From a virus, in IMG/VR virus record IMGVR_UViG_3300030099_004588, positions 1 to 49,628 of that record: a stretch of DNA of 49,628 bases; one strand, written 5' to 3'. A program made the position numbers and the translations under genes. Shown piece by piece: positions 1 to 39,143 of this stretch. The number at the start of each line of letters is the position of its first letter. Within the stretch, counting starts at the first letter, position 1. The notes beneath the pieces were generated by a model. It was not told where the DNA came from and made no database searches. It saw nothing but the letters and a program-made list of their open reading frames with translations.

Positions 1-252
1 GCTAAACGTACTCCTAATCATCCTACTAAATCACACATAGTTGTTGCAAAGGAAGGTGATAAGATTAAAACTATACGTTTTGGTCAGCAAGGTAAAAAAG
101 TAGGATCATTATCTGGAACTGCAGGTAAACCAAAAAAAGGTGAAAGTGCTAGAATGAAAGCTAAAAGAAAATCATTTAAAGCACGTCATGGTAAAAATAT
201 AGCTAAAGGTAAAATGTCTGCAGCTTATTGGGCTGATAAAGTTAAATGGTAA
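1..252 (+). CDS. Small basic phage protein, 5' end cut off by window edge
   Basis: An open frame enters from the left edge and gives 83 visible residues ending at TAA 250-252. The product is very rich in Lys, Arg and Gly. Its C-terminal part contains RRKSFKARH-like and MSAAYWADKVKW segments that I recognise as a recurrent small protein of marine tailed phages; no biochemical function is known to me. The stop is one base before the ATG of the next gene, so the two are co-transcribed and probably coupled. With the next two genes it forms a block of three small, strongly basic proteins, which suggests nucleic acid binding or virion packing, but that is inference only. The start lies outside the window. 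Confidence 0.8.
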   Translation, partial: AKRTPNHPTKSHIVVAKEGDKIKTIRFGQQGKKVGSLSGTAGKPKKGESARMKAKRKSFKARHGKNIAKGKMSAAYWADKVKW

Positions 253-454: not shown

Positions 455-702
455 TGAAGGCTTTAAGAAAATCACAAAAAAGTTTAAAAGATTGGGGAGA
501 TCAGGATTGGGATTATGTCAGTAAAGAAGATGAAAAAAAGCCTGTAAGCCAAAGAGGTAGATACCTTCCTAAATCTGTTAGAGAATCTTTAAGTCCTAGT
601 GAAAAAGCTGCTACAAATAGAGCTAAAAAAAGAGCTAGAAGAAAAGGTAAGCAATTTGCAAAATACAGTAAAAAAGTAGCCCGAAAAGTAAGAAATGCGT
701 AA
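454..702 (+). CDS. Small basic conserved phage protein
   Basis: An 82-residue basic protein. The N-terminus has a short acidic/aromatic stretch (DWGDQDWDY), the middle a RYLPKSVRESLSPSEKAAT segment and the C-terminus a Lys/Arg-rich helix (RAKKRARRKGKQFAKYSKKV). The combination of RYLP, LSPSEKAAT and KGKQF is one I recognise from small conserved proteins of marine T4-like and other phages, function unknown. It starts inside the stop of the preceding gene and its TAA (700-702) shares a base with the ATG of the next, so it is coupled on both sides. No membrane or signal segment is present. Confidence 0.85.
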   Translation: MKALRKSQKSLKDWGDQDWDYVSKEDEKKPVSQRGRYLPKSVRESLSPSEKAATNRAKKRARRKGKQFAKYSKKVARKVRNA

Positions 703-3107
703 TGAAAAAAATATTTTATATAATACTATTTATAAGTTTAAACGCAAATTCTCAAGATAGTTTATTTGTAGATTGTGCAGGAAATGAAGCTCCTGAAAAC
801 TGGTTGGGTGATGGATTTTGTGATGATGGTTCTTATTCTTTTGATGGTGTCCCTATATATTTTGATTGCCCTGAGTTTCAGTTTGATGCTGGTGACTGTG
901 ATCCTCCTATAGATAATTCTGTAATACAGGGTTGTACAGATCCTGAGGCAATAAACTACAACCCACTTGCACAGGTAGATAATGGTGGGTGTGCTAATGT
1001 TTCTTGTGATGATGGTGAAGTAAAAATGTTATTAGAGGTTACGCTAGATCAGTATCCAGGTGAAACAGGATGGATACTTACAGATATATCTACGGGAGAG
1101 CCAGTAGAAAGTGTTATGGCAGGAGAATATTCTTTTGACCAGGCAAACTCTATGATACCTTATCAAATATGTGTGCCCGAAACAGGTGTTGAACTTATAG
1201 TAAGTGATTCATACGGTGATGGGTTAGCTGGATCTCAATGGGGTGGAACTGATGGTAACTTTGTTATTATGGGTGACCTAGAGCCTTGTGGTAGTCCTGA
1301 TATTATATGGGAGCTGACTGAACCTAATTTTGGAAATGCTGCATACTCAGGAGTTATACAACTAGAGTATTGTGACATACCTGAAGTTTACGGTTGTACT
1401 GACAATACTTACTTTGAGTTTAATCCTTTTGCTACGCAAGATGATGGTAGCTGCGAAACACTACATATTTTAGGTTGCATTAACTGGACATCTTTTAATT
1501 ACAATCCAGAAGCTACATTAAATGAAATAATTCCTGTTTGTGACTACAAGCTTGTAATAGAGGATGATGCTGCAGACGGGTGGGGTGAATCACACTTAGC
1601 CTTATTTCAAGGAGATAGTTTAGTTGGTATATATACAATGGGTCCTGGATATTATAGTCAAGAGTTTGATTTACAGCTTAAAACAAATAAGCCAATTGAT
1701 GTGTATTATTTTGAAGTTGGACAACAACAACAACCTCAAGAAGAGGTGGAGTTTCAAACAATGCACAACTCTTTTTATTTAGAAAATTCAGAGGGTGTAT
1801 ACTTAATGCAGGGTGGTACTAATCCTTTTGCTAACAATGGTCAAGGAGCTTTGCAGCCTTTTCAACCTCCATTTTGGACAGTATATAGTGCTATGCCTTA
1901 TTGTGGTGATTACTGTATACCAGTTATAGAAGGTTGTATGGAGCAGGATGCTTTTAATTACGATGAAGAAGCTAATACAGATAGCGGAGATTGTCTACCT
2001 GTAATCGAGGGCTGCACAAACAGTTTAGCATATAATTACAATGAAGAAGCAAATGTAGATGATGACTCATGTCAGCCTTATGTTTATGGATGTATGGATG
2101 CAAGTGCTTGGAATTACAATCCTTTAGCTAATGTTGCAGATGAATCTTGTCTTTATTTTGGGTGCACCGATCAGTTAGCTCTTAATTATGATAGCCTTGC
2201 TAATGTAAATAATGATAACTGTATATATCCTGTACCTGGATGTACAGATCCAAACGCCTTTAATTTTAATGTAGAATCTAATGTTAATGATGGTAGCTGC
2301 ATTCCTGTAGTGATAGGATGTATGGACCCTACAATGTATAATTATAATGAAGAAGCAAATACAGCAAGCGATAATTGTATCCCTTTTATATTTGGGTGTA
2401 CTGATACTACTGCTTTTAATTACGACCCTGTCGCTAACACTAATAATGAGTCTTGCATTCCAATAATTTATGGGTGTACAGATCCTAACGCTTTTAACTA
2501 CGACTTAGAAGCAAATACAGAGGACTTCTCTTGTATTGATATAATGTATGGCTGCACTGATAGTACAGCCTTTAATTATGATACACAAGCAAATACTGAT
2601 AATGGTAACTGCATAGATGTATTAGAGGGATGTATGGATCCTTTTGCTCACAATTATGATGCTGTATATAATACAGATGATGGAAGCTGTTTGTATGATG
2701 CAGGTTGTGTTGGAGGTCCTGGGGTTCCTTACTGGCTAAATGATACGTGTTATGCTTGGGTTATTATGGTTGACCCATATTGTTGTAATAACAACTGGGA
2801 TGACAAGTGTCAACAATTGTATTGGAGTTGTAGCGGAGATAGCGATCTTTATACTAGAGATTTACTTAGAGGTCATAACATAGTTATGTATCCTAATCCT
2901 ATGAATGACGTATTAAATATATTAACAAATGGTCCTGTAGCAATAAAAGTACATGATGTATCAGGTAAACTTGTTGTTAAAATAAAACAAAGTCAAACAC
3001 ATAAAGGTTTAAACCAGCTAGATGTAAGTTTACTACCTTCTGGGATTTATAATTTTAGTATAACGTATGAAGGTAGAACGACAACTGCAAAAGTATTAAA
3101 GAGATGA
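702..3107 (+). CDS. Secreted Cys-rich repeat protein with T9SS type A sorting domain
   Basis: An 801-aa exported protein. Residues 1-17 form a Sec signal peptide (MKKIFYIILFISLNANS). Next is a Cys-rich Notch/LNR-like stretch with WLGDGFCDDG, then a beta domain ending DSYGDGLAGSQWGG that is typical of Bacteroidetes surface proteins. I count 13 copies of a repeat of about 20 residues of the form GCTDxxAxNYN...DxxSC between about residues 77 and 663, ten of them consecutive near the C-terminal end. A Cys-rich segment (CCNNNWDDKC) follows. Residues about 729-801 form a T9SS type A C-terminal sorting domain, starting YPNPMNDVLNI and ending SGIYNFSITYEG...KVLKR. In bacteria such proteins cross the outer membrane by T9SS and are anchored or released at the surface. 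A phage gene of this type is unusual, and the host is the likely source. It overlaps the next gene by ATGA. The function may be adhesion or surface modification; not established. Confidence 0.9.
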   Translation: MKKIFYIILFISLNANSQDSLFVDCAGNEAPENWLGDGFCDDGSYSFDGVPIYFDCPEFQFDAGDCDPPIDNSVIQGCTDPEAINYNPLAQVDNGGCANVSCDDGEVKMLLEVTLDQYPGETGWILTDISTGEPVESVMAGEYSFDQANSMIPYQICVPETGVELIVSDSYGDGLAGSQWGGTDGNFVIMGDLEPCGSPDIIWELTEPNFGNAAYSGVIQLEYCDIPEVYGCTDNTYFEFNPFATQDDGSCETLHILGCINWTSFNYNPEATLNEIIPVCDYKLVIEDDAADGWGESHLALFQGDSLVGIYTMGPGYYSQEFDLQLKTNKPIDVYYFEVGQQQQPQEEVEFQTMHNSFYLENSEGVYLMQGGTNPFANNGQGALQPFQPPFWTVYSAMPYCGDYCIPVIEGCMEQDAFNYDEEANTDSGDCLPVIEGCTNSLAYNYNEEANVDDDSCQPYVYGCMDASAWNYNPLANVADESCLYFGCTDQLALNYDSLANVNNDNCIYPVPGCTDPNAFNFNVESNVNDGSCIPVVIGCMDPTMYNYNEEANTASDNCIPFIFGCTDTTAFNYDPVANTNNESCIPIIYGCTDPNAFNYDLEANTEDFSCIDIMYGCTDSTAFNYDTQANTDNGNCIDVLEGCMDPFAHNYDAVYNTDDGSCLYDAGCVGGPGVPYWLNDTCYAWVIMVDPYCCNNNWDDKCQQLYWSCSGDSDLYTRDLLRGHNIVMYPNPMNDVLNILTNGPVAIKVHDVSGKLVVKIKQSQTHKGLNQLDVSLLPSGIYNFSITYEGRTTTAKVLKR

Positions 3108-4138
3108 AAAAATTATTACTAATATTGTTATTCATTCCTTTAATAGGAAACTCTCAGAGTTTACATAAAATATTTAAATATTCTACATTTTATGCTGCAA
3201 TTAATGGTGGAACATCTTTAGGGGATAATCAAGTTTGGTCTGTAACATCAGGATCTCTTGAGGAGAATGTAATAGAAACTCCATTTGATTATACTTTTTC
3301 TATAGGTATAAGAAAAATAAAACGATTTGGATATGAGAATAGAGCTTTAACTTTTTATAACGGTACAGAAAATTCATACAGTGATGCTGCTACAATTGGT
3401 AGAGTAGATGGTTTTGAGTATTTATTTGAAGCTGACTTTGTAAGACGTTTAGGTGTAAATTATACTAATCAGCATCATTTTGTAAGGTATGTAGCTGACA
3501 ATTGGGTTGCTAAGGTAGAATATTTAGAAGATGGTTTTGCTGATATAAAATATTTTGAAGCCTCACAAAGATACAGAAAACAAGTAAGGGAGGGCAAGCT
3601 TTCGTTCAACGGGGGTTTAGTGCAAAGACTTGCCGAACCTTACGGGTTTGATCCTTTATCTGACTGGGTACTTGATAATGGTACACTTCATTATACATAC
3701 CTTGCTCTTCAAGAAGGATACAACATTACCCTAGGGGGAGAGTATTTTTCACCTGACGGAGAGCTTGTAGCAAACAGTCAAGAGGTATGGGAAGAGGTTG
3801 TTATACCACAAGTTATAAATAATTATGTAGAAAAACAAAGAAATTCTATATCTAATATTGTAGAGTACTCTTTTGTTTTAGGTTTAGACTATTATCATTT
3901 TACAAAAGATTTTTGGTTTCATACTTGGGGAAACATTATGCCTTACCACTTAGACACTGATAATATATACTCTTATCACAAGTTTAATAATGGTCAATGG
4001 ATAGACTACTCTCTTGGTTTAATATACGGTTATAGATTTAATAAAAGTTTAGGTATATTTGTAGAGGGTAGATACAATAAGTATTGGAACAGACAGTGGC
4101 ACAACTTTAGTGTTGGCCTTAATTATGTAATATTTTAA
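3104..4138 (+). CDS. Predicted outer-membrane beta-barrel protein
   Basis: A 344-aa protein with an N-terminal signal peptide (MKKLLLILLFIPLIGNSQS). The mature part is rich in alternating aromatic and polar residues typical of transmembrane beta strands (for example YSLGLIYGYRF, GIFVEGRYNKYW, FSVGLNYVIF), and it ends in a terminal Phe, the usual C-terminal signature for barrel insertion by the BAM complex. I do not recognise a named family. It starts in the ATGA overlap with the T9SS cargo gene, so both are made from one transcript. A phage-encoded outer-membrane protein could change receptors, block superinfection or assist secretion of its neighbour; the sequence alone does not decide. A secreted virion protein is the main alternative. 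Confidence 0.7.
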   Translation: MKKLLLILLFIPLIGNSQSLHKIFKYSTFYAAINGGTSLGDNQVWSVTSGSLEENVIETPFDYTFSIGIRKIKRFGYENRALTFYNGTENSYSDAATIGRVDGFEYLFEADFVRRLGVNYTNQHHFVRYVADNWVAKVEYLEDGFADIKYFEASQRYRKQVREGKLSFNGGLVQRLAEPYGFDPLSDWVLDNGTLHYTYLALQEGYNITLGGEYFSPDGELVANSQEVWEEVVIPQVINNYVEKQRNSISNIVEYSFVLGLDYYHFTKDFWFHTWGNIMPYHLDTDNIYSYHKFNNGQWIDYSLGLIYGYRFNKSLGIFVEGRYNKYWNRQWHNFSVGLNYVIF

Positions 4139-4140
4139 TC

Positions 4141-4425
4141 ATGGCAAAAGAATTAAGCGAAGAAACATCATTTAATATAAGTTTAAAAACACTAGCAGGT
4201 ATTGCTGTTCTTATATTTACATTGGTTGGGATGTGGTTCACACTTCAAAATGATATAGCAGATGCTAAGGAACTACCTCTTCCTCCTGATCCTGAAATTA
4301 CTCGTATGGAGTATGATATGAAAGATCAGCTTATTAGACAAACTATTATGACCACTCAAGAAGATGTAAAAGAGATAAAAAGTCAAATGATTAGAATGGA
4401 AGAGAAGATTGATAACTTAAGATAG
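4141..4425 (+). CDS. Small membrane protein with coiled-coil tail, lysis-associated candidate
   Basis: This 94-residue protein has an N-terminal cytosolic stretch, one hydrophobic helix at about 17-36 (LKTLAGIAVLIFTLVGMWFTL), a Pro-rich link (ELPLPPDPEI) and a charged C-terminal helix with heptad-like spacing (VKEIKSQMIRMEEKIDNL). It sits two bases after the barrel gene and just upstream of the thioredoxin-like, endolysin and holin genes. One membrane helix plus a coiled coil would suit a pinholin- or spanin-like role, but no family motif proves this. I recall similar MAKEL...VGMWF proteins in other marine phages without a known function. Confidence 0.75.
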   Translation: MAKELSEETSFNISLKTLAGIAVLIFTLVGMWFTLQNDIADAKELPLPPDPEITRMEYDMKDQLIRQTIMTTQEDVKEIKSQMIRMEEKIDNLR

Positions 4426-4429
4426 GGTT

Positions 4430-4768
4430 ATGAAAAACTTACTAATTACATTTTTCTTTATATCATTATTATCTTTTGGTCAAGACTTTCCTGATGGAAT
4501 GGTGGCTGTTGAGTTTAATGCTAGTTTTAATAAGTCTAACGAAGTTAGTTGGCTTCCTAAGCTTACGGACTGTGAAATAGAAAGAGTTGATATAACAGCA
4601 GACGCAAGGTGGTCTAAAGAATATAAGATAGTAGTTGTTCCTACTATTGTAATATTTAATAACAATGAAGAAGTAAAAAGATTTCAAGCAAATATAATGA
4701 TGACTATGGAAGCTACTAAGAGTGAAGTTCAGAACTCTATAGACGAAATAGTAATGGAAGCATTTTAA
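4430..4768 (+). CDS. Periplasmic thioredoxin-fold protein lacking the CxxC site
   Basis: A 112-aa protein. Residues 1-18 are a Sec signal peptide (MKNLLITFFFISLLSFGQ). The rest follows a thioredoxin pattern: a strand VAVEFNAS, a helix, a strand ERVDIT, then YKIVVVPTIVIFNN with the cis-Pro (P71) that marks the fold, and a final helix. The place of the WCxxC active site holds SFNKS, so both redox cysteines are missing; the single Cys is C48. The protein is therefore unlikely to be a classical disulfide reductase and may act as a binding or chaperone module in the periplasm. It is the third exported protein in this block. The spacing to its neighbours is 4 and 9 bases. Fold call fairly sure, function unknown. 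Confidence 0.75.
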   Translation: MKNLLITFFFISLLSFGQDFPDGMVAVEFNASFNKSNEVSWLPKLTDCEIERVDITADARWSKEYKIVVVPTIVIFNNNEEVKRFQANIMMTMEATKSEVQNSIDEIVMEAF

Positions 4769-4777
4769 ATTTAAATT

Positions 4778-5227
4778 ATGAGTTTAAGTAAAAATTTTTC
4801 TCGCTCAGAGATAGAACACAGTAACACAGCAAAAAGATTAGGTATTAGTAATGAAATGTCTGAAAAACATTTGGAAAGCATGCAAAGGCTTATTGATAAT
4901 CTCATTCAACCTATGCGTGACGCTATTGGTCCTATTCGTATTAGTAGTGGTTATCGCAGTCCGAAACTCAATAAAGCTATTGGGGGATCATCTCGCAGTC
5001 AGCACAGCAAAGGTGAAGCTTTGGATTTGCAGTTTTGGGAAAAAGGAAAAATGAATAACAAAGTTATTTATGACTGGGTATTAGAATCAGGTGTAGAGTT
5101 TGATCAAATGATAAACGAATTTGATTTTTCTTGGATACACATATCTCTTAAATCGAGAGAGAATAGAAGTCAAGTTCTTGAGGCCTACAAAAATGAAAAA
5201 GGAAAGACTGCTTATAAACTAGTTTAG
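4778..5227 (+). CDS. Endolysin, peptidase M15A family
   Basis: A 149-aa protein of the zinc-dependent M15A peptidase family, which cuts peptide cross-links in peptidoglycan. The zinc site is complete: SQHSKGEALDL supplies His76 and Asp83, Glu114 in MINEF is the expected catalytic acid, and WIHIS supplies His121. ISSGYRSPKLN (about 55-65) is the conserved segment before the site. There is no signal peptide, so release to the periplasm should depend on the holin encoded three bases downstream. The length fits single-domain phage M15 endolysins. The N-terminal KNFSRSEIEHS segment is also usual for the family. Confidence 0.92.
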   Translation: MSLSKNFSRSEIEHSNTAKRLGISNEMSEKHLESMQRLIDNLIQPMRDAIGPIRISSGYRSPKLNKAIGGSSRSQHSKGEALDLQFWEKGKMNNKVIYDWVLESGVEFDQMINEFDFSWIHISLKSRENRSQVLEAYKNEKGKTAYKLV

Positions 5228-5229
5228 TT

Positions 5230-5616
5230 ATGAGTAAATTATTAAACTTTTTAGGTGGTGGTGTTGTAAAACAGGTTGGAGATGTAATAGATAATCTTAG
5301 TACATCTGAGGAAGAGAGATTAGAAGCAAAGCGTAAAATGGAGGAAGTTCTTATGCAGGCTGAATCGCAAGCACAAGAACAAGTTACTAGACGATGGGAG
5401 GCAGACATGAAGTCTGACAACTGGTTATCTAAGAATATTAGACCTTTGATATGTATATTTTTAACTGCAATTTTTGTAGTTTTGTCAGTGTTTGATGGTA
5501 ATATAGGGGAGTTTGTTATTCAAGAAAGCTACATACCTATATATCAAACATTATTAATAACAGTATATGGAGCTTACTTTGCAGGTAGGTCTATAGAAAA
5601 AATAAGAAAAAAGTAA
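5230..5616 (+). CDS. Holin, 3TM type
   Basis: A 128-aa protein with a charged N-terminal half (coiled-coil region about 25-60) followed by WLSKNIRPLICIFLTAIFVVL and a second hydrophobic stretch around IPIYQTLLITVYGAYFAG. This matches the pattern of the 3TM holin family best known from gene transfer agents, in which W-L-x-K-N-x-R-P precedes the first membrane helix. It would form the inner-membrane lesion that lets the M15 endolysin reach the cell wall. It lies three bases after the endolysin stop and its TAA overlaps the ATG of the fibre gene. The C-terminus is basic (RSIEKIRKK). Confidence 0.85.
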   Translation: MSKLLNFLGGGVVKQVGDVIDNLSTSEEERLEAKRKMEEVLMQAESQAQEQVTRRWEADMKSDNWLSKNIRPLICIFLTAIFVVLSVFDGNIGEFVIQESYIPIYQTLLITVYGAYFAGRSIEKIRKK

Positions 5617-30432: not shown

Positions 30433-31917
30433 ATGGCTGGAGAAGGTTTATTTTTCACAGGAGTTGTTTTAAAGAATAATCGTGATTTAATTCAGGAACA
30501 GGCTACTCGTGATTCTTTGCAAATTCAAAAGGATCAACTTAAGTTGCAACAAGATGAGGCTGCTGCTAGAAGAAGGCAAGAAAGAGAAGAGGGAAGTAAA
30601 GCAATATCTTATTCTGGAGACGATATAAATGCAAGGCTTCAAGATCCTTATAGAGCTAATTACGATGAGTATAGAGGCTATATGGAGCAAAACTCTTTAG
30701 ATGTTTATAATTTAGTTCCTGATGCTGTTCAAAAAAGAGGTGATTTTGAATCTACTCTTGTTACTGATGGAGAAAAACTAAAGAAAATATCTTTAGACTA
30801 TAAAGTTATAAAAGATAAAATAGCTACTGGAGAGATTGATACTTCAAAGATATTGACAAATCCAGAGACAGGTAAATTTATTTTTGAAGAAAACTTTGAT
30901 AACATAGTAAACGGCTATAGTGGTGGTGAATCTTTAGATAGCCTTATGAGTAACTTCTCTTTAGAGTATGGTGACGTTGTAGATGTTGTTGACTTTATAG
31001 ACCCTAGTAATGGTTTGCTAGATGATATATTAGCAAAGAAAGAAAATGTAGCTAAGGTTGACAAGTTTCAAAAAGATGGTAAAGTTACAACTACCACGAA
31101 TGTTCTTACAGATAATGTTTTAAATCAATTTAAACAAGAATTAAGAGAGAGCCTTAGGTTAGATCAAGATGGTAACTATGATGTTTTAGAGTTTCAAAGC
31201 TTATTACAGGGTCAACAAGCCTTTGTTTTTGCTGATGGTTCTTCTGGAGACGCTAGAAGAGCTTTTGCTAATACTAGTAAAGAAAATGGTGGTGCTGGTA
31301 TGGCTGGTAATGTTGGAGACACTTTTTTGAATAAATTAGATCCTAAAAATCAATCTTTTGATCAAGACCTTTACAACCAATATGTAGAGTTTATAATTAG
31401 TGAGGAAACGAAAAAAGCTCAAAGTAGATATAAACCTCAGGTAAGTGTAACTGAAGGATCTTTAAAAAAAGGTGGTACACAAGAAGGTTTATCTCAAGAA
31501 GATATTGATTTTCTTTCAGGTCCTTCTAAGTCTACATTATCTTACGGTAATGTTCAGCTTAAGTTTGATGCAGGAATGTATGATGACGTTACAGATAGAA
31601 ACATAGAAGTTAACATAGTGCCTAAATCTTTGTTACCAGGTCAAGGCGAGCTTCAAGAGTTTTTTGAAAAACAATACAAAGACGAGGTGGGAGATACCAA
31701 CAAAAGTGTTAAAGGTCAAGTTACTAGACTTGGACTTACAGCTGACAATGTTAAAGTTGCTTCAGTTAAGTTTGGTAAAAAAGAATACTTAATACCTTAC
31801 GAATCTATAAGTAGCGAAATAGCAGAACTTAAAAAGACTTCTGTAGGATATAAGATAGGTCAATTTGAATCTGAATCTACTCCTCAAGGTATAGATACCT
31901 CAAAATATAATAAATAA
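30433..31917 (+). CDS. Virion-internal protein candidate (494 aa)
   Basis: A 494-aa protein. The N-terminal 65 residues form a charged helix (RDSLQIQKDQLKLQQDEAAA, then RRRQEREEG) after a short hydrophobic start (MAGEGLFFTGVVL). The rest is mixed alpha/beta, with a GSSGDARRAFANTSKENGGAG loop region around 272-292, and I do not recognise a domain. There is no signal peptide. It begins three bases after the preceding stop and its TAA shares a base with the ATG of the giant gene, so the three proteins are made together. It may be a cargo or tail-lumen protein ejected with the 2408-aa protein; not proven. Confidence 0.7.
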   Translation: MAGEGLFFTGVVLKNNRDLIQEQATRDSLQIQKDQLKLQQDEAAARRRQEREEGSKAISYSGDDINARLQDPYRANYDEYRGYMEQNSLDVYNLVPDAVQKRGDFESTLVTDGEKLKKISLDYKVIKDKIATGEIDTSKILTNPETGKFIFEENFDNIVNGYSGGESLDSLMSNFSLEYGDVVDVVDFIDPSNGLLDDILAKKENVAKVDKFQKDGKVTTTTNVLTDNVLNQFKQELRESLRLDQDGNYDVLEFQSLLQGQQAFVFADGSSGDARRAFANTSKENGGAGMAGNVGDTFLNKLDPKNQSFDQDLYNQYVEFIISEETKKAQSRYKPQVSVTEGSLKKGGTQEGLSQEDIDFLSGPSKSTLSYGNVQLKFDAGMYDDVTDRNIEVNIVPKSLLPGQGELQEFFEKQYKDEVGDTNKSVKGQVTRLGLTADNVKVASVKFGKKEYLIPYESISSEIAELKKTSVGYKIGQFESESTPQGIDTSKYNK

Positions 31918-34900
31918 TGAATGAAGAAGCATTAAAAGATGCCTACGGTCTGTTTACACAATCAGGCTATAATGGTACACAAGATGAGTTTTACACTTTA
32001 TTATCTGACAACGCTGAGGCATTTGCAGACTCTTATGGTTTGTTTAAGGGGTCTGGGTATAGTGGTTCTGAAGATGACTATAAAGAGTTGCTTGGTTTAA
32101 AAAAAAAAGATTCTTTTCAGTTGCAAGATGCAACTGCTCCGAAGGATTCAGAGGTATCTCTATCAGTATCTCAAGATGGTCAGTCTTCTTTGGAACAAGA
32201 TGTTCAAGTTAGCCTAGAAGAAAGACTAGCCAAGAGAAAAAGCCTACCTATAGAGGAGCAAATTGCTCTAGTAAAACAAGACGAGTTAAGACCTTTTTAC
32301 GAGTCTCAAGGATTAAACTTAGATGATAAGTTGAACTTTGAGGCTATTAAGAAATCTAAAGCTGAAGAAGAAAAGAAAAAGAAAGAAGCTGAACAAGAGC
32401 TTAGTTTCTTCTCTAAGTTGTACAACAGAATAACTAGCACTGAAGATTTAGAAGAAGACTTCCAAACTACAGATGAAGACAAGGCTGATCAATACCTTGC
32501 TAATAATGAAGAAAAAATATTTGAAGCAGAGAAGCAGTACAATATTGCTAAAGCTAAAGAAATAACTCAGGTCTTCTCTCCAGATCAAAGAAAAGAACAA
32601 TTTGAAGAGCAAGGTGTAGACTTAGGTTATATGCCTACAAGTTTCATAAAAGTTAACGGAGAAGATTTTAGTGTAAAAGAACTTCAAAAGAATTTATACG
32701 ATAGCGAGTTTATAAATAAACTACAATCTGAAGAGATTAATGTAGACATTGATAACTCTATTGAGGACGATACCCTACAATCTTTAATTGACCTTAGAGA
32801 CAGACAAAAAGAGTCTGGTGGTCAGTGGGGTGATATAGCTCAATCCTTTTATTCTGGTGCTTTAGATCAATTAGTTGCTGGTCCTGTAGAGTTTTTAGAG
32901 TCAACTTTTGCTACAAACCCTTACCAAAGATCCATAGTTAATGCTATGGGTGGCAGACTAGCTTCAAAGATTAGAAATGAAGCTAATAGGGTAAGAGAAA
33001 AGACTAGGGTGTATCAGGAAGATGGGATGACTAAGTCTTTACTTAAAGGTAATTTTTCTGACGCTATGTTCCAAGCTGGTAACGCTCTATCTGAGTCTGC
33101 TCCTTTAATATTAGGTATGTATGCTTCCGCTCCTTTAGGGTTAGCTGAGGGTGCTACATTAGGTTTTGCAGGAGTTTCTGCCTATGGTCTCAAATCCCTT
33201 GAACTTAAAGAACAAAGACTAAAAGGTGAGATAGATATGTCTGATGCCCAAATATTGTTAAACTCTGTTTTAACTGGTGGTGCTGAAGCTTTCTTTGAAA
33301 GGTTTACCTTAGATGCTGTTAACGCTAGTAGAGGGGTTTTTGCTTTAGGTAAGATAACTCCAGGTGAGATTGCTGAAGGATTTACAAAAGGATTCTTAAG
33401 ACAAGCTAGAGTAGAGGGATTATCTGAAGGTGCAACAGAGTTGTCTAACATGTTTACAGACCTTATAACAAGAGATATTGATTACGAAAAAGGTGAGCTA
33501 AAAGATACTGCTGTTAGTCTTGAAGATGTTGCTGTGAGGTTCTCTGATGCAGCGATGATTGGAGCTCTTATGGGTGGTGGTATTCACACTGTACCTTACA
33601 TGGCTAAATCTATGTCTAAGTTTAAAATATTAGATGAGAATATAGCTGTTCTATTTACAATGGAAGATGGGTCAACTCAAAGTATGAGTAGAGCAGACGC
33701 TTTAAAGTTTGTTAAAAACCCTGAGGTTGCAGAGAGAGTTAGAAGTGGTGCAGTAACAATGGACGCTTCTATGAATGATATTGCTAAACAACAAGTGGAA
33801 GAAATACTTTATGGTTTTTACGCACCTGACGCTGTAGCTTCAAGAGAGGTTATGCGTGAGAAAGAAGGTGGGGTTCAAAGTATTCTTGATAAAATTAGAG
33901 ATGCAGAGGAAGTCTCTATAGAAGACGTTAACAGTTTATCTAAAGCTGTATCTGAAATGGAGGCTGAAGGCAAGAAGTCTAAGTATAACATATCTGAAAG
34001 CACTAAAGCAACTAGATCTAAACTAAACGCAATACTTAAACAAAAAGGTATTCAGATAGTAGATGCTGTTGCTTCTCAAGACGTATCTATGTCTAAAGTT
34101 ACTGAAACTGTAGACGCTACAAAGATAGAGAGTCAAGAGGAGTATGACTCTGTTAAGAGACAGTTGGAAGATGGTAAGAGAAAACCAACGATTGTTCAAT
34201 CTCAAAACCAAAGTGGTATAAAGGTTAATGGTGAAGTATCTCAAACGTCAGAGATAACTCAAGGTAAGTTTAAAAGTGTTTCTGCAGCTAGAAACGCTAT
34301 GAAAGACTTTGAAGCTAAGAGAGATGCTGCTAAGAAAGGTGAGATGTTAGAGAGTGATCTTTTCCCTGCTAACAATAAACTATTCTTAAATACAAAGAAA
34401 GAAACTCTTGACGAGATACCTCAAGAGGTTATAGATAACAACGATTACCACATATTAACTTCAGAGAAAGAAGGTCTAACACAGGGGCAAAGAGCTTCTA
34501 GAATGGAAAGACTTAAGTCTATGTTGGACGAGGCTGGTGCAACTTATTATACCATTCAGGGTGTTTATAACGGGGTTGCTGAAGAAAGCCTTGTGGTAAC
34601 AGGAATAGATAACGCTACTGCTTTAAATTTAGGTAATCAGTTCCAACAAGAATCTATCTTCTCATCCAAAGATGGTTTGATGTTTGGTGATGGACGTATA
34701 GTTCCTTTAGATGGAGGTATAATTAAAGGACCAGACGCTAGAAAAAAACAAAACGTAACCATAATGAATGTTGGTGGAAGAAAAGTTTCTATTCATTCAG
34801 GTTTAAATAGACTTAAAACTAGTTATGGTAAAAACTTTAACTCAGATAATATTCACAAGTTGGATGAGAGTAATGCTAACTACGATGCTGAGTTATTCCA

Positions 34901-37900
34901 AGGGTTAGACGATAGTAGAAAAAGATCTTTAGGTTTTGCTTTTAAATTACTTAACTCTATTGGTGGGCTTAACGTTACTGTTGTTAGGAACAGTAAGGCT
35001 ATGGAAGAGCAATTAAAGTCTATAGGTCAAGATCCATCTAAAAATAGAGGTTCTTTATTTAGAGGTGCTGACAAGACTATATATGTAAACCTTGAAACTA
35101 TTCGTGGAAATACTTTATTCCATGAGATTATTCACCCTATGGTTGACTTCATCAAAAAGACTGACCCTGCCTTATACAAAAGAATAGAGTCTGAAGTTAA
35201 GGAAAGTGACATGAAAAGACGTGTTATAAAGGATGGTCGTAGGATGAAGGGTTCTTACCTTGATTGGGCTAAGGCAAACTACGAGGGTCTTTCTGAAGAG
35301 GCTTTAATAGAGCAAGCTTTTGCTGAAATGATGGGTGATGCTGCTTACGGTCACTTTGTAAACAAGCAATCTACCTTATCTAGAATTAGAGAAGTTATAA
35401 GAGAGATATTGTCTAGAATTGGTATTGTATCTCCTTTTGATAACGTTGAAGCTATAGATTTAAATCAGATGTCTTTATCTGATATAAGAACAAATCTAGC
35501 TGAAGCTTTAGTAAATGGTAGAAAAATTAACGTTGGAGGTGTAGAGTTTGAGGTTGGAGACGTAGATAAGTTGTCTGAAATTAGAGAACAAAACCCAACA
35601 CTATTTAGTGAACCTAACCCAGAGACTGCAGACATATCTAAGTCTTATCTTTCGGATAAAGCAACAGAACTTGGAATAGATCAGTACTCTGACCCAAGAT
35701 TTGTTAATCGTTTAGATGAAGATAACTCTAAGATGATTGCAGACGCTTACGATAGTTTAGTTGACGATCCTAAGAATCCAGAAGTTATAAAAGCCTATAA
35801 AGCTTTAGCTGATGAAACACTAAGTCAATATCAATCTATAATAGATAAAGGCTACAAGTTAGAGATATGGAAAGGCAAGGGTGAGCCTTATGCTAACAGT
35901 GCTGAAATGATTCAGGATGTTAGAGATAATAAACATCTATATATATTTGGAACAGAGGCTGGTTTTGGAGAGGGTGCTATCACACCTGAGCAAAGAAAAG
36001 AAAATGTTATGCTCTCTAGAACAGAGTATCAAGATGTTAATGGAAACCCTCTTGTTGTAAATGATATATTTAGATTTGTTCATGACTTCTTTGGTCATAC
36101 AGAGCTTGGTAATGGGTTCGGTCCTATCGGTGAAGAAAATGCTTGGCTTAATCATTCTAGAATGTATAGCCCTGAAGCTAGAAAAGCAATGACTACTGAG
36201 ACTAGGGGTCAAAACTCTTGGGTAAACTACAATAATAATCTAAGAAGAAAGGATGGTACTATACCTAAAAAAGGAGAAAAAGGTTACGTTCCTTTATCTA
36301 AAAGACCTTTTGCTGATCAAAAGATGGGTATACTTCCTGATAATATTGTAAACCCTGTAGATGTAAAAGCTGAAACTATAAGCGATATTAGAATGCAGGC
36401 TCCTCAAGAAGAAACAGAGAATGTAGTTTACACTTCAGGGTTAACAACAATAGCTTTTGATATTGCTCAGTCAGTTGTAGACGCTGATTATAAGGCAGGT
36501 AAATATGTTACTAAGCAATTAGCTAAAGCTCGTATAGATAAACCTAGAAAGCAATTTGAAGGTTACGACATAAGGTTATCTAAACTATTAGCTAAACCAT
36601 TTGGATCTCACTCTAACGAAGAGATAAAAGAGATTATGGTTAGAAACAGAGGTGATCTTCAAGCTGAACTTCTTAGAGTTGATGACAATCTTAAGTTATT
36701 AAAAAACGCAATAAAAGATTCTAACATAACTCCTGAGCAAGTTAATGATCTTCTACATAATATTGAAGATATAAAAGCTATGGAGAAGTCTGAACTTAGA
36801 ACAGCCCTTTTAGAGATGAGAACCCATATAGATGAGTTGAGTAGAACACTTATTAGAGAGGGATTAGTGGCGGGACAGACTATGTTTACCATTGATTCTA
36901 ATATGGGGTTATATGTTACAAGATCTTACAGACAGTTTGAGACTAAAAATTGGGAACAAACAGATAACGATATAATACAAAACGCTAAAGACTTTCTATA
37001 CAGAGAGGTTAAGAATCAAAACATAAGAGATGTTGAGGATGGTAAGATAGATAAAGATGGCAACCTGATAACACTTATGTCTGAAGATGCTATTTTAAAT
37101 AAAGCTCAAGAGGCTTATGATAAACTAGTTGGGGAAAAAGATTTCTTAAAGTTTTCTGGTGGATCCTCAAGCTTAGAAGGATTAACAAGGGTTAACTCTA
37201 TATTTATGCAAAAGAAAGTTATCCCTGAAGAAATAAGAGAGCTTTGGGGTGAGATAGATAGTCCTTTGATAAACTATAGCAATACTATATCTAAAGTTGC
37301 TAAAACAATCTCTGCTGAGAGAATGTATAGAGAACTTAATAACATAGGTCAAGGTAAATTCATATCCGACAACTATGATAGATCGTCAACTAGAAATAAA
37401 TTGCAGGGTTCCAAATGGGGAGACTTAGATGGAAAGTATGTGGACGATGAGATGTACGTTGTAATGAATCAAGTTAACAGAACTTTTGAGAAAAACAAAC
37501 TTCAACAAGCTTACGATGCTTACATGCAACTTGTTTTATTCAATAAGAAAATGAAGACTGTATGGAATCCTGGTACACATGCTAAAAATATTATAGGTAA
37601 CAGCTCTTTTGCCATGATGAATGGCCACTTAAGTCCTGATCTTAAACAAATTTATCAAGACGGTAAGCTATCTATAGAAGCGTTTTATAACATGAAGAGT
37701 GAAGATTTTAAAGAGTTGTATGACAAGCTTATAAGACTAGGTGTTGTAAACTCTTCTGCCTCTTTAGCTGAAATTCAAAATATATCAGAAGACCTTAGAA
37801 ACACTAAGTTTGATTTGACTGAGTATCTTAAAGATAAAAATGGTAAGATACAAAAAAGAATGGCTAAAGTATCTGGTACGATTAGAGAAGGTATATCTTC

Positions 37901-39143
37901 ATTTGATGAAAAACTAATGAAGGCTTATCAAGCTGAAGATGATATATGGAAGATATTTGGGTACTTGTCTGAAAGAGGTAGATACATAAAGGCTGGTTTA
38001 GATGTTGCAGTAGCTGAAGAAACAGCTGCTAAAAACATTAGAAATCTTTATCCTAACTATAATGAGATACCTCGTATAATAAGATTACTTGGTCGTTCTC
38101 CTATAGTAGGATCATTCGTTGCTTTCCAGGCTGAATCTGTTCGTAACGCTAAGAACACTGTAATGCTAGGATTTGAAGAGATGGGTAGTGATAACTCAAA
38201 GATAAGAAGAATTGGTGCTACAAGAATAGCAGGAACTATTGCTACAATGACTCTAATGGAAGGTCTTCAGTTATATACAGCTCAATTTTTAGGTGAGTTC
38301 TTAGGTTTTGGCGGGGAAGATGATGACGATGTAGAGAGAAGAAAGATGCGTCTTTTACTACCTGAATGGGACGCACCAGGAAATATAGCGTACATGTTCA
38401 GAGGGTTTTTAGAATCTAAACAATCTGAAGATCAGACTGAAAGAGATAGATACTTTGACTACATAAATTTCTCTAGTATATCTGGTGTTGGTTACATGAA
38501 GGATATTATGAGATTAGTATTTACAGATATAGATACAAGGCTTGGTCAAGATAGTGCTTTAAATATTCTTGAAAAAATATATGCTCCATTCTTGGGTCAG
38601 GAAATGACTTCTATAGCTGTGACAGAAGCTTTATCAAATAAAGGTGGAAAAATATTTAATGAAACGGATCATATACTTACAAAGGTTGGAAAAATGATTA
38701 TATACGTTGGTGATAAAGTTCAACCTGGTGCTGGTAGAGTTCTTCAAAGAGGTTTTGAGTCTGCATACGATGAAGACTCTGACTTAGTTCCAGGATATGA
38801 AATGCTTGCTATATTTGGTATAAGAATTAACAGAGTTAATGTTAACAAAGGTTTAGCTATAAAGTCTAACTTCTTACATAAAGATATGATAAGTAGAGTG
38901 GGTAAAGAAGTTTTAAAAGATCCTTTTGCTCTAAGAGAAGAGGCAAGAAAAAATTCTAGTTTTAACGAGGATCTAAACAAGTTAGCTGACCTTATAGCTG
39001 CAGCAAGATTAAATAGTATTAACGGAGAAAATGTTAAAGCTATTCTTTCTAACTCTAGAGTGTCTAGACCAGTTATAGATGAAGCTTATAATAGGTATCT
39101 TGACAGATATTTAGAAGATGCTATAAGTGTTGACGATAAATAA
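31917..39143 (+). CDS. Giant ejected polyvalent protein with HExxH metalloprotease motif
   Basis: A 2408-aa protein, the largest in the window. Two copies of a 21-residue unit (AYGLFTQSGYNGTQDEFYTLL-like) at 9-29 and 39-59 start it. Helical and amphipathic Gly/Ala regions (about 385-560) follow. FHEIIH at 1068-1073 with EQAFAEMM (Glu1132 to Glu1137) is a zinc metallopeptidase signature. FVHDFFGHTELG (His1389, His1394) and TTETRGQNSWVNY (about 1426) form a domain I know from many large polyvalent phage proteins. The C-terminal 700 residues contain MKTVWNPGTHAKNIIGN (about 1880) and a hydrophobic helix near 2120, also typical of such proteins. They are carried in the virion and injected with DNA. 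No RNA polymerase motif was found. Confidence 0.8.
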   Translation: MNEEALKDAYGLFTQSGYNGTQDEFYTLLSDNAEAFADSYGLFKGSGYSGSEDDYKELLGLKKKDSFQLQDATAPKDSEVSLSVSQDGQSSLEQDVQVSLEERLAKRKSLPIEEQIALVKQDELRPFYESQGLNLDDKLNFEAIKKSKAEEEKKKKEAEQELSFFSKLYNRITSTEDLEEDFQTTDEDKADQYLANNEEKIFEAEKQYNIAKAKEITQVFSPDQRKEQFEEQGVDLGYMPTSFIKVNGEDFSVKELQKNLYDSEFINKLQSEEINVDIDNSIEDDTLQSLIDLRDRQKESGGQWGDIAQSFYSGALDQLVAGPVEFLESTFATNPYQRSIVNAMGGRLASKIRNEANRVREKTRVYQEDGMTKSLLKGNFSDAMFQAGNALSESAPLILGMYASAPLGLAEGATLGFAGVSAYGLKSLELKEQRLKGEIDMSDAQILLNSVLTGGAEAFFERFTLDAVNASRGVFALGKITPGEIAEGFTKGFLRQARVEGLSEGATELSNMFTDLITRDIDYEKGELKDTAVSLEDVAVRFSDAAMIGALMGGGIHTVPYMAKSMSKFKILDENIAVLFTMEDGSTQSMSRADALKFVKNPEVAERVRSGAVTMDASMNDIAKQQVEEILYGFYAPDAVASREVMREKEGGVQSILDKIRDAEEVSIEDVNSLSKAVSEMEAEGKKSKYNISESTKATRSKLNAILKQKGIQIVDAVASQDVSMSKVTETVDATKIESQEEYDSVKRQLEDGKRKPTIVQSQNQSGIKVNGEVSQTSEITQGKFKSVSAARNAMKDFEAKRDAAKKGEMLESDLFPANNKLFLNTKKETLDEIPQEVIDNNDYHILTSEKEGLTQGQRASRMERLKSMLDEAGATYYTIQGVYNGVAEESLVVTGIDNATALNLGNQFQQESIFSSKDGLMFGDGRIVPLDGGIIKGPDARKKQNVTIMNVGGRKVSIHSGLNRLKTSYGKNFNSDNIHKLDESNANYDAELFQGLDDSRKRSLGFAFKLLNSIGGLNVTVVRNSKAMEEQLKSIGQDPSKNRGSLFRGADKTIYVNLETIRGNTLFHEIIHPMVDFIKKTDPALYKRIESEVKESDMKRRVIKDGRRMKGSYLDWAKANYEGLSEEALIEQAFAEMMGDAAYGHFVNKQSTLSRIREVIREILSRIGIVSPFDNVEAIDLNQMSLSDIRTNLAEALVNGRKINVGGVEFEVGDVDKLSEIREQNPTLFSEPNPETADISKSYLSDKATELGIDQYSDPRFVNRLDEDNSKMIADAYDSLVDDPKNPEVIKAYKALADETLSQYQSIIDKGYKLEIWKGKGEPYANSAEMIQDVRDNKHLYIFGTEAGFGEGAITPEQRKENVMLSRTEYQDVNGNPLVVNDIFRFVHDFFGHTELGNGFGPIGEENAWLNHSRMYSPEARKAMTTETRGQNSWVNYNNNLRRKDGTIPKKGEKGYVPLSKRPFADQKMGILPDNIVNPVDVKAETISDIRMQAPQEETENVVYTSGLTTIAFDIAQSVVDADYKAGKYVTKQLAKARIDKPRKQFEGYDIRLSKLLAKPFGSHSNEEIKEIMVRNRGDLQAELLRVDDNLKLLKNAIKDSNITPEQVNDLLHNIEDIKAMEKSELRTALLEMRTHIDELSRTLIREGLVAGQTMFTIDSNMGLYVTRSYRQFETKNWEQTDNDIIQNAKDFLYREVKNQNIRDVEDGKIDKDGNLITLMSEDAILNKAQEAYDKLVGEKDFLKFSGGSSSLEGLTRVNSIFMQKKVIPEEIRELWGEIDSPLINYSNTISKVAKTISAERMYRELNNIGQGKFISDNYDRSSTRNKLQGSKWGDLDGKYVDDEMYVVMNQVNRTFEKNKLQQAYDAYMQLVLFNKKMKTVWNPGTHAKNIIGNSSFAMMNGHLSPDLKQIYQDGKLSIEAFYNMKSEDFKELYDKLIRLGVVNSSASLAEIQNISEDLRNTKFDLTEYLKDKNGKIQKRMAKVSGTIREGISSFDEKLMKAYQAEDDIWKIFGYLSERGRYIKAGLDVAVAEETAAKNIRNLYPNYNEIPRIIRLLGRSPIVGSFVAFQAESVRNAKNTVMLGFEEMGSDNSKIRRIGATRIAGTIATMTLMEGLQLYTAQFLGEFLGFGGEDDDDVERRKMRLLLPEWDAPGNIAYMFRGFLESKQSEDQTERDRYFDYINFSSISGVGYMKDIMRLVFTDIDTRLGQDSALNILEKIYAPFLGQEMTSIAVTEALSNKGGKIFNETDHILTKVGKMIIYVGDKVQPGAGRVLQRGFESAYDEDSDLVPGYEMLAIFGIRINRVNVNKGLAIKSNFLHKDMISRVGKEVLKDPFALREEARKNSSFNEDLNKLADLIAAARLNSINGENVKAILSNSRVSRPVIDEAYNRYLDRYLEDAISVDDK

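Follow-up and report, generated by a model that had tools for sequence, protein, structure and literature searches.

A phage gene cassette linking a predicted type IX secretion cargo to a virus-associated outer-membrane barrel candidate

Proteins addressed to a host secretion system are seldom found among phage gene products. One gene in the DNA analyzed here raises the question of whether such a protein is encoded by a phage and, if so, what it might do for the virus. The stretch in question, hereafter the window, corresponds to an entire IMG/VR virus record (IMGVR_UViG_3300030099_004588; 49,628 nucleotides). In an initial annotation, made from the sequence alone, the 801-aa product of this gene was read as a cargo of the type IX secretion system (T9SS).

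Genomic context of the locus

The features of the locus are collected in Table 1. Further downstream of the endolysin and holin genes are genes for a GroES-like protein, the terminase (TerL), the portal, and virion proteins, and the opposite strand of the window codes for replication and recombination functions. The terminase shares 37-47% identity with its counterparts in the Flavobacterium elemo phages and a Manatee Spring podovirus, and most of the TerL matches fall in Flavobacterium and Cellulophaga phages. The gene order M15 peptidase, GroES, terminase, and portal is common to the window and the elemo phages. The start codons of the window are without an evident Shine-Dalgarno motif, as expected for Bacteroidota-type translation. 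No integrase was found among the part of the window genes that was scanned, and a lytic lifestyle is assumed. The rightward late gene block is closed by a 2408-aa ORF (31917-39143), and the 405-aa and 494-aa ORFs that precede it gave no PHROG match.

Table 1. Features of the predicted cargo gene and its neighbors in the window
Feature	Position	Strand	Description	Basis
Predicted T9SS cargo gene	702..3107	+	801 aa, ATG start	
Cargo, predicted signal peptide	residues 1-17			
Cargo, LNR-like Cys region	residues ~25-66		followed by mid domain	
Cargo, GC-D-NY repeats	residues 77-653		n = 13	
Cargo, Cys-rich domain	residues ~671-715		GPGxPYWLNDxCYAWV	
Cargo, type A T9SS C-terminal sorting domain	2886..3104 (residues 729-801)	+	YPNP ... 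GK ... SGIY ... KVLKR	PF18962 and TIGR04183 above curated cut-offs
Predicted outer-membrane beta-barrel	3104..4138	+	344 aa, signal peptide	AF2 model, Foldseek (weak), linkage to cargo
TM94	4141..4425	+	94 aa, single N-terminal TM and predicted coiled-coil-like tail	sequence and alignment; linkage in 86/88 loci
Secreted thioredoxin-fold protein without CxxC	4430..4768	+	112 aa	PF00085 E=1.2e-4, just under its cut-off
Endolysin, M15-type peptidase (neighbor)	4778..5227	+		phrog_894 E=2.2e-35
Holin (neighbor)	5230..5616	+		phrog_3427 E=1.5e-29

Domain architecture of the cargo protein

The C terminus of the protein, which reads SGIYNFSITYEGRTTTAKVLKR, was recovered by two profiles. The Por_Secre_tail model PF18962 matched residues 729-798 (E=3.8e-13; 50 bits, cut-off 27), and TIGR04183 matched residues 729-801, that is, to the last residue (E=2.3e-11; 43.5 bits, cut-off 23). 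The C-terminal sorting domain originally noticed as a YPNP...SGIY...KVLKR pattern is thus a significant match, and the reading of the protein as a T9SS cargo stands with it. On sequence grounds, we class the 801-aa protein, the product of a phage genome, as a T9SS type A cargo. Among its relatives, conservation within the sorting domain is strongest at PNP, G, GxY, and the terminal K, positions that we take to be the type A motifs. PF18962 was matched in 58 of 63 relatives and scored above its cut-off in 24 of the 30 records examined, and a full sorting domain lies at the C terminus of 133 of 138 distinct cargos. The five cargos without PF18962 (L034, L035, L036, L037, and L107) have instead a short C-terminal tail showing an LGR...DGS/T..K pattern (VTDxLGR...IYSDGSVxKxILKK), possibly a sorting signal in reduced form or of another type. 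Isolate and uncultured phage records gave weak matches to the C-terminal region of the cargo, the best being at 298384-298605 of LR745206.1 (uncultured phage, 634 kb; E=8e-5), with a further one at 325868-326140 of LR756502.1 (uncultured phage, 642 kb; E=8e-3).

At the other end, the N terminus reads MKKIFYIILFISLNANSQDS. All signal-peptide calls in this study were made with a simple heuristic combining hydrophobicity and the cleavage site, and this method predicts the signal peptide MKKIFYIILFISLNANS, with QDS following the cleavage site, in agreement with the Sec signal proposed at the outset. The same heuristic was positive for 2 of the 27 other ORFs of the window and detected signal-peptide-like N termini in 107 of 111 related cargos.

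The body of the protein is dominated by repeats, and the protein as a whole contains 42 cysteines. A motif scan found 13 GCxx..xNY motifs between residues 77 and 643, spaced mostly by 26 aa, which reproduces the 13 GCTDxxAxNYN-type repeats of the initial annotation; a stricter repeat pattern gave 12 matches, against a maximum of 1 in 2,000 composition shuffles. Repeat number can differ between close relatives: the cargos of L057 and L058 have 24 and 22 repeats, respectively, by a loose pattern and are 52 aa apart, and their sorting domains are nearly identical despite this difference. GC-D-NY repeats also occur in large ORFs upstream of the cassette described below (in L016, L018, and L021) and in L040 (1740-9461), where the large ORF that carries them has no signal peptide, which indicates that these repeats are common to secreted and probably structural phage proteins.

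This sharing of repeats admits the reading that the repeat protein belongs to the virion and that its sorting domain is merely an Ig-like adhesive fold. In addition to the L040 ORF, Synechococcus phage S-CAM3 has related repeats in a protein annotated as a structural component of the virion. We nevertheless judge a place in the particle very improbable, given the match of the sorting model up to the final residue, the signal peptides called by the heuristic on the cargo, the barrel, and the thioredoxin-like protein, and the constant pairing of the cargo with an outer-membrane barrel.

As a rule, T9SS cargos are cellular proteins, and a host gene could have entered the viral contig through misassembly or accidental capture; an assembly chimera of host DNA at 702-3107 had been raised in the initial annotation itself. 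We found the identical cargo protein, with the same neighbors in the same order, in two further contigs (L002, 18 kb, and L003, 58.6 kb), along with diverged forms in many viral contigs, some of which have TerL and portal genes nearby. Cargo relatives were detected in 39 viral loci. On account of this recurrence across many independent viral contigs, and of the near absence of the linked barrel from cellular genomes documented below, a chimera was rejected, and we assign the host-gene explanation a negligible likelihood.

An overlapping gene for a predicted outer-membrane barrel

What the initial annotation overlooked, the barrel gene downstream of the cargo gene and the fixed four-gene cassette of which both are part, is the more novel aspect of the locus. 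In the window, the cargo and barrel genes share 4 nt where the stop of one meets the start of the other, and this overlap is present in most loci. The window barrel has a predicted signal peptide and a C terminus of barrel-like character. An AlphaFold2 model based on 68 sequences predicts 14 strands and a partly helical insert at 178-251 (pLDDT 76, pTM 0.70). In Foldseek searches of the PDB, a first, poorer model gave weak matches to generic outer-membrane barrels, including OmpG and FadL, and the better model gave no match below E=0.001, its top matches being FapF, a BAM complex chain, and porins. The predicted fold of the barrel was matched from end to end by one viral prediction, A0A516LKJ4 of BFVD (E=1.6e-25, TM 0.72, 22% identity). 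Signal-peptide-like N termini were called in 145 of 147 barrels. In the barrels of L031, L034, L035, and L036, a lipobox-like signal (e.g., LVSC or ITSC) replaces the plain Sec signal, and hence part of the barrel family may consist of lipoproteins.

The modeled strand number equals that of PorV and the PorP-like shuttles, which have 14 strands (PMC9143113). Membership in either group was rejected by sequence: no NCBIfam match was obtained to PorP/SprF (TIGR03519) or PorV (NF033709), hhalign against six PorP-like proteins yielded a probability of 12.9% over 32 columns, and that for PorV was 0.9%. No relevant Pfam family was found in 24 members of the barrel family. As the barrel is not recognizable as PorV or PorP/SprF by sequence, the likeness to these shuttles is one of analogy and not of membership.

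Comparison of distance matrices revealed that the barrel correlates with the C-terminal sorting domain of the cargo at 0.84, with the Cys-rich domain at 0.82, and with the body at 0.76; the corresponding partial correlations are 0.54, 0.59, and 0.35. The correlation between the barrel and the C-terminal parts of the cargo may be explained by gene adjacency alone.

The TM94 and thioredoxin-fold proteins

Two small genes follow the barrel gene in the window. In TM94, the N-terminal TM is followed by a charged and helical tail, as seen in the sequence and the alignment, and K/R residues are richer before the TM than just after it in 100 of 126 proteins. The heuristic is positive for the single TM segment in every one of the 126 TM94 proteins; accordingly, on its own it cannot tell signal peptides from TM anchors. 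No TM94 was found in isolate phages.

The last protein resembles thioredoxin at the fold level only. The CxxC active site is absent from all 133 distinct relatives, and by that test the protein is not a catalytic thioredoxin. Signal-peptide-like N termini were called in 130 of 133 members. The predicted cleavage site in the cargos, barrels, and thioredoxin-like proteins is mostly [AGSC]-Q, a type of site associated with Bacteroidota.

Linkage, distribution, and conservation of the cassette

The cassette of the window thus consists of the cargo, barrel, TM94, and thioredoxin-like genes. Linkage was assessed in a sample of 149 distinct barrels, 88 of which lie in loci with enough flanking sequence on both sides. 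A cargo gene accompanies the barrel gene in all 88 of these informative loci, and all four genes are present in 86; the loci were gathered by similarity and are related, and these counts are therefore not independent events. The barrel gene is directly downstream of the cargo gene in most informative loci, with other orders in the rest. The four genes stand in the order cargo-barrel-TM94-Trx in 70 loci, barrel-TM94-Trx-cargo in 9, and TM94-Trx-cargo-barrel in 7. The genes flanking the cassette vary between loci. Two records each carry two different cassette copies with differing cargos near the two contig ends (L069 and L082 in IMGVR_UViG_3300030116_004105; L104 and L112 in IMGVR_UViG_3300030330_003594), and these copies would be close neighbors if those genomes are circular.

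A scan with the barrel alignment detected at least 589 relatives in IMG/VR viral contigs and 4 in genome contigs. In a profile search of 395 Bacteroidota genomes, a barrel was found in one, a Flavobacteriales MAG already known to hold it, on a contig of 43,296 bp, the same size as an IMG/VR virus record. The barrel is nearly confined to viruses and almost absent from cellular genomes. Among isolate phages, tblastn with three family members as queries gave no convincing match, and profile searches of five selected phage records recovered neither the barrel (in a search run without a positive control) nor the sorting domain. In the elemo and Manatee Spring records no cassette was seen upstream of the M15 gene, and profile searches of these records did not find the barrel or the sorting domain.

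Median dN/dS (Nei-Gojobori) is lowest in the Cys-rich domain (0.06) and the barrel (0.08) and higher in the repeats (0.15) and the sorting domain (0.21), pointing to purifying selection on all these parts. The fixed four-gene module maintains a T9SS-tagged protein in viral contigs that number at least in the hundreds.

Possible functions of the cassette

We lean, if only slightly, toward the view that the window carries a phage surface-display cassette, with the host T9SS exporting the cargo and the barrel serving as a dedicated partner. T9SS substrates require a Sec signal and a C-terminal domain (CTD), and type A CTDs go to PorV; in Flavobacterium johnsoniae, a type B substrate has its own SprF-like shuttle, whose gene comes immediately after that of the substrate (PMC12618676). 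The phage pair has this SprF-type layout but combines a type A signal with an unrelated barrel, and it is on this basis that we infer a dedicated partner. Host PorV normally serves type A cargos, and hence known biology does not require a dedicated barrel. Two MAGs with cassette contigs encode PorP and PorV families, the binning of the phage contigs in them being uncertain.

By this mechanism, the cargo would be made late in infection and would pass the inner membrane via Sec, after which the host T9SS would read the type A sorting domain and carry the protein across the outer membrane. The phage-specific barrel would most likely act as the dedicated partner of the cargo, taking it over from the translocon or fixing it at the surface, and might relate to it as SprF does to SprB. 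TM94 and the inactive thioredoxin-fold protein may have supporting roles in the envelope, in folding, assembly, or tethering. Once displayed, the disulfide-rich repeats would most plausibly form a coat on the infected cell that blocks the adsorption of other phages, or re-adsorption of progeny, at T9SS-dependent surface receptors. T9SS and gliding mutants (gld and spr) of Flavobacterium columnare resist phage (PMC9233685), which indicates that T9SS-dependent surfaces matter for infection; extending this to a receptor-masking role of the displayed cargo is speculative. The five cargos without a recognizable sorting domain count against the display reading.

The same phage resistance of T9SS mutants (PMC9233685) could be turned to a different account, in which the cargo and barrel act as a decoy: they would occupy the translocon and shuttles, leaving host adhesins or receptors undisplayed, with the repeats as a bulky blocker, and such jamming could itself cause exclusion. 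The genuine type A signal of the cargo would suit such a role. Set against it, the repeat number and body of the cargo vary like those of exposed surface proteins, and a simple plug would not need the purifying selection recorded above. We think a decoy quite improbable.

In the window, the cassette lies directly upstream of the M15 endolysin and holin genes, and endolysin or holin families occur within five genes of it in 78 of 130 loci. This frequent proximity to lysis genes also fits a role in lysis. The barrel, TM94, with its spanin-like topology, and the thioredoxin-like protein might disrupt the outer membrane at lysis, and the sorting domain would bring the secreted cargo to the outer membrane, where it might loosen cells or debris. 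The N-terminal TM, charged helical tail, and K/R bias of TM94 are in keeping with such a release module. Yet the four genes occur together even though 52 of the 130 loci are without a lysis neighbor, and late genes cluster anyway; comparison of this proximity with the linkage in 86 of 88 loci indicates that the cassette genes are tied more tightly to each other than to lysis genes. Further, no o-spanin-like partner was identified for TM94, and a large variable repeat protein is no known lysis factor. We retain a release function because proximity to lysis genes is common, while not universal, and consider it unlikely.

Returning to surface display, the cassette is carried by many marine phages whose hosts are of Bacteroidota type, which suggests that these viruses place one of their own proteins on the infected-cell surface. 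A farther-reaching version, which we put forward tentatively and would sooner doubt than assert, holds that a widespread group of marine phages has a self-contained display system that engages the host secretion machine and remodels the infected surface. In this version, the T9SS-tagged repeat protein would have a shuttle or anchor of its own in the outer membrane, specific to the virus and without sequence relationship to PorV or SprF. If the barrel does hand over or anchor the cargo, viruses would have solved the T9SS shuttle problem a second time, the barrel would be a tool for studying partner choice by SprA, and the cassette would offer a concrete mechanism by which Bacteroidota phages alter the surface of infected cells.

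Relationship to previously described systems

Phage-encoded T9SS cargos have precedents, and it is the four-gene cassette that appears to be new; the literature searched, which excludes preprints and most subscription journals, holds no report of the cassette or the viral barrel. The closest parallel for the cargo is Cryophage (Bellas et al. 2020, PMC7468147). In the portion of that paper available to us, type A sorting domains are described on phage genes with highly variable cargo, use of the host T9SS is proposed, superinfection exclusion is among the suggested roles, and the authors term the T9SS cargo a unique occurrence. The Cryophage cargos differ from that of the window in being an endoglucanase, a GH39 protein, and a PA14 protein, and the same portion of the text makes no mention of a linked barrel, TM protein, or thioredoxin-like gene. 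In crAss-like contigs (de Jonge et al. 2019, PMC6949934), the available part of the paper likewise describes sorting-domain proteins in Bacteroidetes phages, near the head gene section; these have BACON domains and not GC-D-NY repeats, and no cassette is described there.

On the cellular side, the SprB-SprF and other type B pairs of Flavobacterium resemble the window in that a substrate gene is followed by the gene for its cognate 14-stranded barrel (PMC12618676, PMC9143113). They differ from it in having type B signals and barrels that belong to TIGR03519, whereas the window combines a type A signal with a barrel that is neither PorP/SprF nor PorV. The 4-nt overlap of the phage pair recurs in the MAG of L117, between a PorP-family gene (locus L122) and the gene that precedes it.
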